Source: Ianthella basta
Lineage: Eukaryota > Porifera > Demospongiae > Verongiida > Ianthellidae
Direction: 5' to 3'
Length of the DNA: 64,000 nt
Assembly: GCA_964019415.1 (NCBI GenBank)
Contig: OZ025872.1
Coordinates: 7,395,322-7,459,321, forward strand
Numbering within the stretch: position 1 is the stretch's first letter; every line of letters begins with the position of its first letter. The position numbers and the translations under genes are program-made. Below are positions 9,540 to 51,172 of the stretch, piece by piece. The notes beneath the pieces were generated by a model. That model saw only the letters and a program-made list of their open reading frames with translations. It was not told the origin of the DNA and did no database searches.

Positions 9540-10916
9540 CAAGATGGTAAGAAGTGCAAAGAGGTCTCATCTTTAGAGAAGACGAGAACAGCTGGAGCAA
9601 CATTTGCAATGTCCAAAGAAGTTCTGGAGGGCACTAGTACTAAAGAAAATGAATGTGGGCAAAGTGAAGAATCAAGGTTGGAATCTGCTTTGTGTCTATG
9701 ATGGAGGAGGCTGTGTGAAATCAGGCGAGGATGCATTGGCAGTTTGGAAGAGTCATTTTGAAACAGTTTTTGGTGGTGGCGGGGAAGAAGGGGGTGTGGA
9801 GCCAGTTGCAATAGGGTGGACACAGACAAGAGTATGCCTGAATCAAGTGAGTGCCTTTGTGAGCAGATCTCCAGAGAGGAGATTTCATGGGCTTGTAGTG
9901 AGAAAGGATGCATCCCCAGGCATGGATGGTGTTGTGATGGACATGACGGGGTCAGAGAGGCTGTTTGAAGTATGGGTAGCTCTGTTTGGAGTTTGCTGGC
10001 AGTATGGAAGAGTGCCTTTCTTGTGGAGAGAAAGCATCATTATACCAGTGCCAAAGAAACAAGGATGGGGGGTATGTGATGTGAGATTTCGAGGTATTTT
10101 TCTCACCTCTGTGGTCAGCAAGGTATTATGTAAGATCCTAGAAAGTAGATTGAGTGCTGAGGCATACGAGGGCAGGTTACTGAGGAAGATCGCTAGACAC
10201 TCTGTGGGATGTGGTAAGGGTGCCTGGGTGAAGAACATGGCTAAGTGTGTTGGTGACTTTGGGTGGAGTGGTATGGGAGTGAATGCGGTGAAGAATCTGT
10301 CTGATTCAGAGATTCAGGAGATGTTGGAGAGTGTTGCATGGAGGAGGGTGACGTCAATGATGAAAGAGGACATGGAGAACAAGCCAAAGCTGAGTATACT
10401 CAAAGATATTGCCGATCTTAAGCTAGAATTGAGTTGTGCATTGGTGAAGGAGAAGAGGGAGAGGACAATGTTAACGAAATTAAGAGGAGGAACAGCAGCA
10501 TTTCAGATCGAGGTTGGGAGATGGCAAGGAGTGATGAGGGATGACAGAGTTTGCAAAGAGTGTCAGAGTGGAGAAATTGAGGATGTCTGCCATTGGCTGC
10601 TACCAATGCCCTGCCTGGGACCACATCAGATGGCCCCTGCTTACACAGCCTGGGATGGACATCTGGCCACAGAAGAAGCAGACTGCCATCATTCTTTCCG
10701 CAACTTGTACCAACACTAGTATTATGAAATGCATCAGATCCATGTGGTGTGACCGTTTTGGTCTATGACTCTATTATTCATGTAACAACCTCCTTCACAT
10801 GTCCATGTTTAGTCTATGTACCTTTGTGATAGTGCTACATTGGACCTATCTGTGTCCTAGCACCTCCTTGTGCAGTGCACTCTAATAATGATTGATCGAT
10901 CGATTGATTGATTGAA
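9540..10916 (+). mobile_element. LINE (non-LTR retrotransposon) fossil, internally deleted
   Basis: The frame from 9604 encodes a pre-RT segment (FWRALVLKKM, AVWKSHFETVF), then the first RT motifs (SIIIPVPKK near 10045 and VSKVLCKILESRLS near 10120). The RT catalytic YxDD region is missing: the sequence jumps to a C-terminal zinc-knuckle segment with CKECQSGEIEDVCHWLL near 10550-10600. A frame shift directly after it moves the following CPAWDH into the next frame, completing a C-x2-C-x8-H-x4-C pattern. The 3' end carries a short GATT/GATC array at 10887-10914, a typical LINE tail. A mutated, inactive copy. Confidence 0.75.
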
Positions 10917-11422: not shown

Positions 11423-14400
11423 ATGCTGGGTGAAATGGCGAACGTAAAGCAGTTGTTTTTAAGGGCTTTGTCCTTTGTATACCTATTTGCGTTCTCTTCG
11501 CTTTACCCTCAAATTAGTGGTAAGAAGCATTGTTCCTCTTCAGGCCTGACCATGTGTGTTGTATTCATGTTGCGAACTTGTGGTGATTCAACTCCACTTT
11601 CTGTCCAGGTCTATATGGCCGAAGCGGACTGACACCGGTGCACACCTTAGTGGCAAAATATATCGGTGGGTGAGCATTTGGGGTCAATGGCTGTACTACA
11701 ATGTTGAAGTCAGTTGTATAACACGTGCTTGAATATTACGTTGAATCCATTGTATATGGAAGTACTTAGCTACCACTAATCTCGCGGGGCCAGACCCTTT
11801 TCCAGTATTGCGCAAGCGCCCGAGAAGGGTCTGGGAGTTAGCTCGACTGTTGTCGTGTAATATCCGTGGGAACGCCGGACTAGGTGCTTTATAACACCTC
11901 TTTGTTGTGGACCAAGTTTAAACTGAGGTGGTATGGCGGTGTGCGAAGAGATGCAAGAGTGGCTGCTGCGGCAGGATTTCAGAGCTTAGCAGGAGCACGT
12001 GCAAGCAGTGGTTGAATTCGTACGTAGGCGTGATGTTTTCGTCTCCCTTCCCACTGGCTACGGCAAATCACTCATCTATCGGGTTTTACCTGTGGTAATA
12101 GAGCTAGCGCGGGGTCGTCCACCAAAGACGTCGATCGCTCTAGTTATTAGCCCCTTGTTGACGCCCAAAACAGCAGTGTTCTATCTCTATTGTACGTCAA
12201 TAAGCCAGAAAAGCATAGCTGACGAAGCTGATTGCTAGCAACACTTCGAATTTTGCACGATAAGGAGGCTTTGATTGGTAATCGAAGTTTGGAGCCTCCA
12301 CGGCTTCCACATAGGCTAACTCTCAGACCCTATTCTTCGGGCGGGCGGGTTATGCAAGACCGGAAAAAAGGGTCTGGCCCCGCGAGACTAAGCTACCACG
12401 TATACGACCATAGACCCTATATACAACAAACAGACTGGAAAGTAGGTGGTATTAAGTAGAGCTGAGCGGTACTTACTTCCAGAACTCTATAATGACATTC
12501 ATATTATATAAATATATTCATTCTCTGTGTAACTATAATTCTTGGCATTGAATACTAAACCCTCCATCGAGCCTTCCATAGTACTGTGGTGTGATGGAGA
12601 CATCCGGTGTTGCGGTTTTGTAATTTTTACAGTGCATTACGCTATAGTATGTACATTAATTATATGCAACTAGCTGCAAGGCCCCCGCCTTCGGCAGGCC
12701 CTGTAGGAGGGTAAACTGTAAAGTGGTCGAGTGCTTCCTGTAAGGGGTTTAGTAGTTCTCTGTAGTATCTATATTGTTTCTGTAGGGGGTCTTTGGGCGG
12801 GTCTCTCCGCGTGCTTGGCGTATGCCAGCTGGTCGGACACAGGCTGGTAATGCCATTGCTACTCAGGCCCCAGCTAGTAATGCACTGGCTGGTCATGCAT
12901 GCTCTGCATGGCAAAGGATAGTCCAGGCTGGCCTGGTGATGTCAGTGTGACTGACCTACCATGTGTGCATGCAATTTATATGGAAGATCACCGTAGACAA
13001 ATAATGGATAGTTGTAAGAAGCTGATGGTTCCTGTGTGTATATATGCAGACTTTCTGCAATAGAAAGCTATATAATGTACAAAGGAATGCTATAATTATA
13101 TGTACAAAGGAAGCTCTATGTGTACAAAGAATCTGTGTGTAGCTACATGCTGATGGTTATAGCTATAGTACTTCTCTATAAACAACATTCCTTATCTCAC
13201 CACCAGGTGCATAAATAAAAAAGGTTGTTACGACAGCCAACTTTAGAGCAACACACATAGAACTGACTATGAGCAAAGCAGGGTGGTTCAAGGTATAGCC
13301 CAGCGACTATCAAACTGTGGCCTTGGGCTTTGTTGATCGACATGGCAGAACAACGCGAACGCCTAGGATACGGCATACTTTTTCTTCCAAGGGGTTCAGC
13401 AAGCCCTGTAGGAGGGTCCAGTGTATACTGTAAAGTGGTCGAGTGCTTCCTGTAAGGGGCCCTAGTGCATTCTGTAGAGGGGCCCTGTACGTTTTTCGCA
13501 GATCCAAGATGGCCGACGGTCAGTTCATCCTGGGTTATCACCACGCGCTCCTCGGCAGCAGCTTATTTTAGCACGTCTACCACCTTATATTGTGGACACG
13601 TTGGTGGCCCCAAACCGCTGTAACTTGCACTGGTAGTGGTTTTGCCTATCAATTAGCACATGAATCTAGATCCAGAAATATGTACGTATACACTACCTTC
13701 GGGCGGGTCTCTCCGCGTGCTCGGCGTATGCCAGTTGGTCGGATACAGGCTGGTAATGCCATTGCTACTCAGGCCCCAGCTAGTAATGCACTGGATTGTT
13801 ATGCACGCTCTGGCAAAGGATAGTCCAGGTGATGTCAGTGTGACTGACCTACCATGTGTGCATGCAATTTACATGGAAGATCACCGTAGACAAACAACGG
13901 ATAGTTGTAAGAAGCTCATGGTTTCTGTGTGTGAGACAGCCCCCTTTCCTTTTTGTCCGCTTCAGCATCGCGCTAGCTGGGATGCGCGAACGCCTAGGAT
14001 ACGGCATAGTTTCTTCCAAGAGATCCAAGATGGCCGACGGTCGGTTCCTCCTGGGTTATCGCCGCGCGCTCCTTGGTAGCAGCTTATGTTAGCACGTCTA
14101 CCACCTTATATTGATGTGAGGTACAGCGTGCGACAGCTGGGAACGTTTGGGCGCGTTTCGTCGACGTTCGCGGGAGGAGTTCGCGAACAACGGTTGGGGC
14201 TCCTCTTTTGTATTGGCAGCATAGGAGCGTGCCCGGAAAACCGTATATTTCTTCCGTAAATCCACGATGGCGGACGGCCGTTCAGAGGTTTTTCGCCGCG
14301 CGCTCCTCGACAGGAGCTTCTTCGCGCACGTCGCCCCCCTTAGATCGAGACCGGGTGTGGCGTCCATAACCTGGGAAAGTTTGGTCTCAATTGGCAGCCG

Positions 14401-48784: not shown

Positions 48785-51172
48785 TCTCCACCCTCAAAGA
48801 GATTGCAAACCTTATGCGAAGAGCTAAGCCTCTCTCAGATGACAATGGAGCCAACCAAAGTGACTCAGACCTCCACAACCCTAATTGACCACTTCTGTGC
48901 ATCTAACCCTTGCAGCTTCCTTAAGTCTGGTTGTCTTGATGTGGGAGTGAGTGACCGCCTGATGGTGTTTGTGGTTAGATGGGGGAGACAGTTTCAAGGT
49001 CATAAGATAAAGAAAGTTAGGGCATTTAAGAAGTGCAATGTAGATTCCTCATTGGCAGATCTTGAACGTGCATCTTGGCAAATGATTTGGACATTGACAG
49101 CAGATGGAACAACTGGAAGAGTGTATTCTTGGAATTCTTGACAGACATGTTCCCATCATCAACTGCCAGGTTCGAAGGATTATCCTGCCATGGATTGATG
49201 CAGATGTCTGAAAGCTAATGAGACAGAGGAATTGACTGTGCAACTTAGCAAGTAGAACATAGAATGATGATGCAAGGAACTGTTACAGGAATATCAGAAA
49301 TGTCGTCACAGGGACTCTGAGGCAGGCCAAGCATGCTTACTTTGAGTCGCTAGCTTCAAAGTCCTGACAACAAGGGATCAGTTGCGAAAGTTACCGGGCA
49401 GAGGAATGAGGCAGTCAGTACCTGGTGGTATTGAGCATTGTGGTAATGTTGCTGATAGCTTCAGCAAACACTTCACCAGGACTGCTGCTTCTGAATCCGC
49501 AGTACAATCCCCGCACATTCCAGCTTACTCAAGCTCTTTCCAGTTTGAGCCCATTTCTGAGGAAGATGTTGTACGTGCACTAGCTGGGCTCAACACCACC
49601 AAGGCCACCAGTGTAGACACCATCAGTGCAAGGTTGCTCAAGACAACTGCCCCTGCAATTTGCAGCAGTCTTTGTGTGCTTTTCAACTACAGCCTGAGGA
49701 CAGCATCGATTCCTGCAGAATGGAAGGCTGCAAACGTCATTCCTATTAATCCCTAAATCATCTCAGTCCAAGTGTGTGGATCAGTATCGTCTGATTTCCA
49801 TCCTTCCGGCTGTAGCAAAGGTGTTTGAATCCCTGGTATATGCACAGGTTTACGGGTATCTCCATCAGCATGGTATCCTTAATGAAGCACAGTCGGGTTT
49901 AGGCCCAAGCACATGCACCACACAAGATGTCATCAGATCAGTTGATGACTGGAGGTGCAGCTTAGAGAGAAATGAGATAGTTGGAGCAGCGTTCATTGAC
50001 CTCACAAAGGCGTTCGACTCCATCTCCCATGCTTTGCTGCTGGAGAAGCTGTCACAGTACGGCTTCAGGGACAACTCTTTGCGGTGGTTCCAGAGCTACT
50101 TGTCTGGCAGGAAGTAGAGGGTGGTGGTTGATGATGAGACGTCTGAGCGGTCTGCAGTTTGCGCTGGTGTTCCACAGGGATCCGTTCTTGGACCGCTCCT
50201 CTTCAGTATCTTTGTCAATGGCCTTGTTATGGTGCAAGGTAATGCTATACGCAGATGATACCACAGTGTACTATTCTGATTCAAGTGTTAACAACATACA
50301 GGAAGTGCTCACAGAGGATTTTGGTCAGCTGTCATCATGGATTAGTTGTAATGGACTGAAGATGAACCTGCAGAAGATGCAGTTTGTGTTTCTGTCCAGA
50401 AGGTGCCGGGAGAAAGAAGCTGATAGCCTGCAGGTATGTATGAATGGTGAAGTATTAAAGAGATGTGATCAGGTTAAGTACCTGGGGGTTATTGTAGACA
50501 AACAGTTGAACTGGAAGAGGCATATAGAGCAGGTTAGAAAGAAATGCCTCTCTGCCCTAGCAATACTGTACGAAGTTAGAAGAGCACTGCGACCCAAGTT
50601 GAAGTCACTTTTGTACCTAACAATTGTACAACCCCACCTCGATTACTGTTCAGTCGTATGGATGGAATGCTGCAAACATGACGCCATCAAATTGGAAAGG
50701 ATTCAGAAAAGTGGAATGAGGATGATACTGAACGAAACCTGGTACTGCCCTTCTGCAGACATGAGGTCTAGGCTAGGGTGGATGTCCTTGAGCAACAGAA
50801 GGAGAATGCTGAAAGCTATCTGTACAAGACAATATATGAGAGGCGATGGTCCAGCGTACATGACAAACCTATTTAGAGCACATAAGGACTTAGGACTACA
50901 TAGTGTCAAAAGAGAGAATGATATATATCTGACCACTCCTAGGTCAAACTGGATGGTAAAGGCATTAGCTACAAAGCAGGTATTGATTAGAACTCTTTAC
51001 CTATCACCATCAAAAATGCAAGCAATTATACTTTTAGGAGCAGTATTATATGTACTAAATTATAACACTCTTTAATGAACAATTTACCAATGATTTGAAC
51101 AGCCAGCTATATGTTGTATGTGTTTGTGAGTTGGGTCCCCCATTCATACCAGCGTTGGGCTGATGGGGTACC

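Follow-up and report, generated by a model that had tools for sequence, protein, structure and literature searches.

A RecQ-bearing element of the sponge Ianthella basta, very probably an internally deleted transposon copy of the AcademH lineage

Introduction

AcademH transposons are reportedly present in animals and fungi, to go by the title of Kojima 2020 (Mob DNA 11:15). In the accessible part of PMC10045372, AcademH duplications are printed as 9 or 10 bp and those of AcademX, a member of the same superfamily, as only 3 or 4 bp, a difference that seems tied to helicase versus nuclease; the same text gives 4 to 10 bp for IS256/MuDR. A RecQ helicase is listed in Academ in the available text of PMC3627910, and helicases of AcademH are cited in fungi in that of PMC10799480. 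KolobokH is likewise a RecQ-bearing transposon, which the available portion of PMC9587614 places in fungi only; Kolobok duplications are TTAA, 4 bp.

We analyzed a 64,000-nucleotide stretch of DNA from I. basta (referred to as the window; G000:C5:7395322-7459321 of a 209-Mb, 96-contig assembly). An initial annotation had noticed in it an element with inverted ends and a RecQ fragment, for which a Mutator relationship was considered, Academ was set aside on account of shorter duplications, and an undescribed helicase-bearing family was suggested. Since AcademH is printed with 9- or 10-bp duplications (PMC10045372, accessible part), the ground for excluding Academ fails, and with a helicase-bearing group already in print the family can hardly be called undescribed. 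The lineage of the window element has in common with AcademH, as far as the printed text goes, the helicase and duplications of 9 or 10 bp; the window copy differs from full AcademH elements in that nothing is retained besides its two ends and the beginning of RecQ. We are confident that the window element is an internally deleted, non-autonomous copy of a cut-and-paste DNA transposon of the AcademH lineage, an assignment made by printed description, i.e., by helicase type and duplication length. Most likely, it is a fairly ordinary remnant of an already described kind of transposon.

Results

The Window Element and Its Ends

The features of the window element and of related elements are collected in Table 1. 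The duplication that flanks the window element, AGCTACCAC, is perfect, as had been claimed. Beyond the outer repeats, a longer match between the inverted ends can be followed (66/76 bp, 77.6% identity). Both ends had been described as internally self-complementary. This holds for the left end, where the stem arms are 13 nt long and 92% complementary, and where the stem-loop layout (with a different stem sequence) recurs in other end-families. The stem-loop of the right end is eroded in the window copy and is intact in the corresponding end of a sister copy (in L031). When the two ends of the window element were folded singly, z values relative to shuffles were −0.74 and −1.08 with DNA parameters, and −1.98 and −1.33 with RNA parameters; as single folds, the two ends are thus not clearly beyond shuffles. 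The stretch between the RecQ fragment and the right end comes from the far side of the internal deletion, and probably from the side of a second, opposite-strand gene, any coding role being putative.

Elsewhere in the window, frames at 9577-10719 and 49981-51075 resemble, by eye, fragments of LINE reverse transcriptase, and a minus-strand frame at 2128-2580 resembles, also by eye, the zinc-finger portion of an integrase from a Gypsy-type retrotransposon.

Table 1. Coordinates of the window element, its parts, and related elements bearing the RecQ start. Plain numbers are window positions.
Feature	Position	Strand	Remarks
Non-autonomous element, very probably AcademH-like	11777..12390	+	614 bp; 40 places scored genome-wide; ends 110+94 matches vs 0 in reversed control
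Left target-site duplication, AGCTACCAC	11768..11776	+	9 bp; read in sequence
Right target-site duplication, AGCTACCAC	12391..12399	+	9 bp; read in sequence
Outer terminal inverted repeat, left, TAATCTCGCGGGGCCAGACCCTTTT	11777..11801	+	25 nt; 96% complementary to right repeat
Outer terminal inverted repeat, right, TAGTCTCGCGGGGCCAGACCC read inward	12366..12390	-	25 nt; 96% complementary to left repeat
Stem-loop in left end	11790..11834	+	arms 11790-11802 (CCAGACCC) and 11822-11834 (GGGTCTGG)
RecQ helicase gene, 5' part	11933..12160	+	ATG 11933; in-frame TAG 11987-11989; RecQ segment 11990-12160
Internal stretch by right end	12161..12314	-	DNA similarity only: common to the family's other subfamily, partly to L057:7742-9924
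Extended right end	12315..12390	-	76 bp; stem-loop eroded in window copy
E54, V-ended, RecQ start	L054:226-1262		frame broken; no clear duplication
E71, V-ended, RecQ start	L071:101-1637		exact duplication GCATTCCAA
E70, own end variant, RecQ start	L070:2257-2867		duplication with 2 mismatches in 9 bp
C9-ended element, RecQ start	L057:659-1441		783 bp; exact 9-bp duplication GGAACACCC

Copies of the Element in the Genome and Their Duplications

A genome-wide DNA search with the window element returned 113 matching pieces from the 40 places scored out of 157 candidates, and the family thus has at least 40 copies in the 209-Mb genome. The end motif, at no more than two mismatches, is matched at 110+94 places; the reversed control gave none. 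Together, the 40 scored places and the excess of end motifs over the control show that the element is not a chance arrangement.

Thirty of the 40 fetched copies are two-ended. When copies with shared flanks were collapsed and the best copy of each was kept, 23 independent insertions remained. Exact 9-bp duplications flank 15 of these and 9-bp duplications with one mismatch another four, while two have exact 10-bp duplications, one has 10 bp with one mismatch, and one has none. Thus, allowing one mismatch, 22/23 insertions are flanked by 9 bp (19 cases) or 10 bp (three cases), which bears out a constant duplication across copies; when flanks from different insertions were paired as a control, a duplication was seen in 1 of 506 pairs. 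The sequence of the duplications varies between insertions. This bears directly on the reading of the element as KolobokH-like, i.e., as one combining a Kolobok transposase with a RecQ helicase. KolobokH does encode RecQ, but a 4-bp TTAA duplication would be expected of it, and the group is stated to be confined to fungi (PMC9587614, available portion). KolobokH was rejected on duplication length, and we give this reading next to no chance.

One family member of greater length (L027) contains a nested 70-bp hairpin element with C9-like ends (see below) and a perfect 9-bp duplication; the window copy represents the empty site for this insertion. We also observed 13 elements of 77-131 bp (in L050, L053, L055, L058, and L060-L068) that consist of little beyond two window-type ends placed back to back. 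A 9-bp duplication with at most one mismatch is present in 7/13 of them; those in L067 and L068 have common flanks, and that in L058 lies in a GT repeat.

The RecQ Fragment in the Window Element and in Its Family

The peptide encoded by the RecQ segment of the window element, QEHVQAVVEF...LPTGYGKS...LVISPL, matches Pfam DEAD (4.5e-6) and NCBIfam recQ_fam (1.4e-5), in agreement with the RecQ sequence initially noticed there. The in-frame TAG separates the ATG from the RecQ stretch. In L027, the RecQ frame continues through ISPLSALMLDQ, the match to recQ_fam improves to 2.7e-10, and the best PDB match is a RecQ protein (4tmu, 2.5e-6).

Presence of RecQ in related copies turned out to be partial. 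The segment is found in 17/30 two-ended copies of the window family, and also in other end-families. It is absent from 13/30 copies, in which the ends and side regions are kept and the middle is different or missing; these 13 look like separate deletion products of the same parent. Genome-wide, 563 candidate places were found for the RecQ start, and all 150 that were scored matched. Lookalikes of the RecQ start in the genome far outnumber the transposon copies found, and many of them lie in frames of ~99 aa.

Among the window family, E71, and E70, pN over the RecQ start (36 codons) is 0.18-0.29 vs pS of 0.66-0.83. Within the window family, no codon-position bias is seen in four copy pairs (e.g., differences of 5, 4, and 4). 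These substitution patterns are the signature expected of selection on RecQ between end-families and of neutral decay within the window family. RecQ was thus a working gene at the time the families diverged and is now dead weight in the short copies; selection between families together with decay within one shows that RecQ is a resident gene of the lineage and not a one-off capture. The latter was rejected, as the segment recurs in several end-families and has been under selection.

Other End-Families with the Same RecQ Start

Other families with TAGTCTCG ends bear the same RecQ start close to one end (Table 1). The V-type end, TAGTCTCGCGTAGCCAGACC, has 588+531 genome matches at no more than two mismatches (0 in the control); since it differs from the window end at two places, this count includes window-family ends. 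The C9-type end, TAGTCTCGTTCCCAGCCCAC, has 907+892 matches at no more than three mismatches (3+5 in the control). V-type RecQ at 90% identity or more is found at three places, one of which is E71 itself, and none is at a DUF6589 locus (see below). A peptide from the opposite strand of the V elements has 12 genome matches, six of them at 82% or more, three weak ones in RecQ-less copies of the window family (E 0.007-0.07), and three elsewhere; none of the 12 is near a DUF6589 locus.

The stems in the ends of the window family and of the V, E70, E56, and C9 sets have different sequences, and yet begin with CCAG and finish with CTGG, or with close variants of these. When 16 ends of eight elements were folded, z was −2 or lower for 12/16; the remaining ends are both ends of the window copy and both ends of the L054:5945-6065 variant. 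In several terminal stem-loops (that of L054:226-310, and those at either end of L071:101-1637 and L056:9304-9939), the loop contains TGACGTCA, which we take to be the CRE/ATF palindrome.

A 5,732-bp V-ended element, L069:201-5932, with an 8-bp duplication (AGCACATC), was considered as a full-length relative and rejected; its 1,184-aa minus-strand frame looks, when judged by eye, like a LINE endonuclease/reverse transcriptase. Another element, L053:6651-9192 (2,542 bp), has unrelated ends (TAGTCAGG...CCTGACTA), inner inverted repeats of ~400 bp, and a perfect 9-bp duplication, TTCCTGTAC; it possibly represents another transposon family with 9-bp duplications.

A Complete Relative, and the Search for a Parent

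That the window element is an internally deleted copy of a helicase-bearing transposon is supported by one verified full-length RecQ-encoding relative, with ends related but not identical to those of the window family. This 6,240-bp element, C9:536642-542881, has TAGTCTCG ends and a perfect 9-bp duplication; its two ends were read as sequence, and its genes are known from search matches, so that a third gene may also be present. The RecQ gene (541220-542482, minus strand) lies in a 588-aa frame and scores 227.8 bits against an NCBI family cut-off of 219.8. A DUF6589 gene (539304-540574, plus strand) is on the opposite strand, tail-to-tail with RecQ. In the flank outside RecQ, TAGTCTCGTTCCCAGCCCAC, with a stem-loop, ends at 542881. 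The left end was predicted, from the nine bases beyond the right end, to read GTCCGACCC-TAGTCTCG, and a whole-genome search located it exactly at C9:536633-536649. There were two other exact matches, on C13 and C14, and when up to two mismatches were allowed, the matches did not outnumber those of the control (17 vs 22). Across an alignment of 190 bp, the left-end inverted repeat hardly differs from the right end. At the ends of the C9 element, TAGTCTCG is followed by a stem-loop that opens with CCAG and closes with CTGG; TAGTCTCG and the layout are thus common to the C9 element and the window family, while the end sequence diverges from base 9 on.

A second two-gene locus, on C5, has a right flank nearly the same as that of C9 (L076 vs L072) and, from this resemblance, is probably a segmental copy; its left end is absent from the predicted place (L077). 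The RecQ-side flanks on C13 and C10 (L073 and L074) contain no clear TAGTCTCG end within ~560 bp, so that among the three RecQ-side flanks read over this distance, a clear end is present in that of C9 only.

The expectation of full-length elements was therefore borne out by the C9 relative, which has RecQ and DUF6589, and not for elements with the window's own ends: among the first 100 of the 204 end matches, no full-length element with TAGTCTCGCGGGGCCAGACCC ends was found. Unpartnered matches among these 100 were followed outward over twenty 10-kb stretches, 13 of which held the double-ended elements of 77-131 bp. The longest parent candidate, L057:7742-9924, is 2,183 bp long and has two mismatches in its 9-bp duplication; its translated frames contain nothing recognisable, as judged by eye. 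RecQ matches of at least 74% identity are all in the fetched short copies, with the exception of C9:3452667. We infer that at some time there was a parent bearing the same ends as the window element.

Linkage of DUF6589 to RecQ

The genome contains 58 matches to DUF6589 (PF20231), which we assigned to 40 loci; 14 prokaryotic control genomes contained no match. A W-type RecQ match (150 scored) is found within 5 kb at ten of the 40 loci, while 0.29 would be expected under uniform placement. With TIGR00614 pieces added, RecQ is within 5 kb of at least 24/40 loci, a number that may be an undercount, as 29 of 633 TIGR00614 candidates were scored. The two genes are convergent (tail-to-tail) in 19 pairs and on the same strand in five; at the other 16 loci, no scored RecQ match occurs within this distance. 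Scores and gaps coincide at several of the 24 loci, which are probably mutual copies, and the 24 should thus not be counted as independent cases. We take DUF6589 to be the Academ transposase, and the DUF6589 protein is most likely the DDE transposase of this lineage. The literature searched contained no mention of DUF6589 and no paper joining RecQ, Amphimedon, and "transpos".

Proximity to RecQ also bears on the Mutator reading, in which the element would be a MULE with a captured RecQ fragment, in the style of Pack-MULEs, moved by a MuDR-type transposase that makes 9-bp duplications. Both duplication length and inverted ends are alike in MuDR/Mutator-like elements, the 4 to 10 bp printed for IS256/MuDR accommodating the 9 bp seen here (PMC10045372, accessible part), and the genome contains 13 loci matching the MULE transposase (PF10551). 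But duplications of ~9 bp are not specific to MULEs, and a scored RecQ match is found within 5 kb at 0/13 MULE loci, against at least 24/40 DUF6589 loci. In addition, a RecQ positioned near one end in several end-families, and under selection there, does not fit a one-off capture. A MULE origin was rejected on co-location, and we consider it very unlikely.

Discussion

Assignment of the window element to the AcademH lineage has one further competitor, a lineage separate from Academ that would combine DUF6589 and RecQ with TAGTCTCG hairpin ends and be AcademH-like in helicase and duplication length. In its favor, AcademH membership is judged here by printed descriptions of helicase and duplication, and DUF6589 is a putative Academ transposase. 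Yet the helicase type and the duplication of 9 or 10 bp are both as printed for Academ/AcademH in the available texts, and we regard a separate lineage as unlikely.

For the AcademH-lineage element, the following course of events can be envisaged. In the complete C9 relative, RecQ starts some hundreds of bases in from one end, and DUF6589 is read from the opposite side. A transposase acting in trans, and most likely being the DUF6589 protein, would recognize and cut the ends, with a stagger of 9 and sometimes 10 bases. The window copy has retained its two ends together with the beginning of RecQ, whereas its middle, with any DUF6589 gene that it had, is gone; mobilized in trans by the proteins of a relative, it very probably inserted at a 9-base staggered cut of the target, which duplicated AGCTACCAC. 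RecQ, a resident accessory gene, would have a part in transposition, possibly through the opening of the terminal stem-loops. Given that z stays above −2 for four of the ends, the window copy's own pair among them, and that single DNA-parameter folds of the window ends are within shuffles, this role of the stem-loops is one that we infer.

A more far-reaching proposal can be made, which we put forward tentatively and hold to be rather improbable as a whole: that the stem-loop ends, next to a resident RecQ, are conserved, their stems having been rewritten yet kept complementary in several end-families, that RecQ opens these hairpins during transposition, and that the orphan domain DUF6589 is the transposase. 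If true, it would define a substrate for the accessory helicase of a cut-and-paste transposon.

In a single genome, matches to related ends of a cut-and-paste lineage that bears a helicase number well over a thousand. The short copies of several of its end-families retain the start of the helicase gene, which explains some of the many orphan RecQ fragments found here. With the complete C9 element, there are now concrete genes and ends with which to ask why a cut-and-paste transposon carries RecQ.
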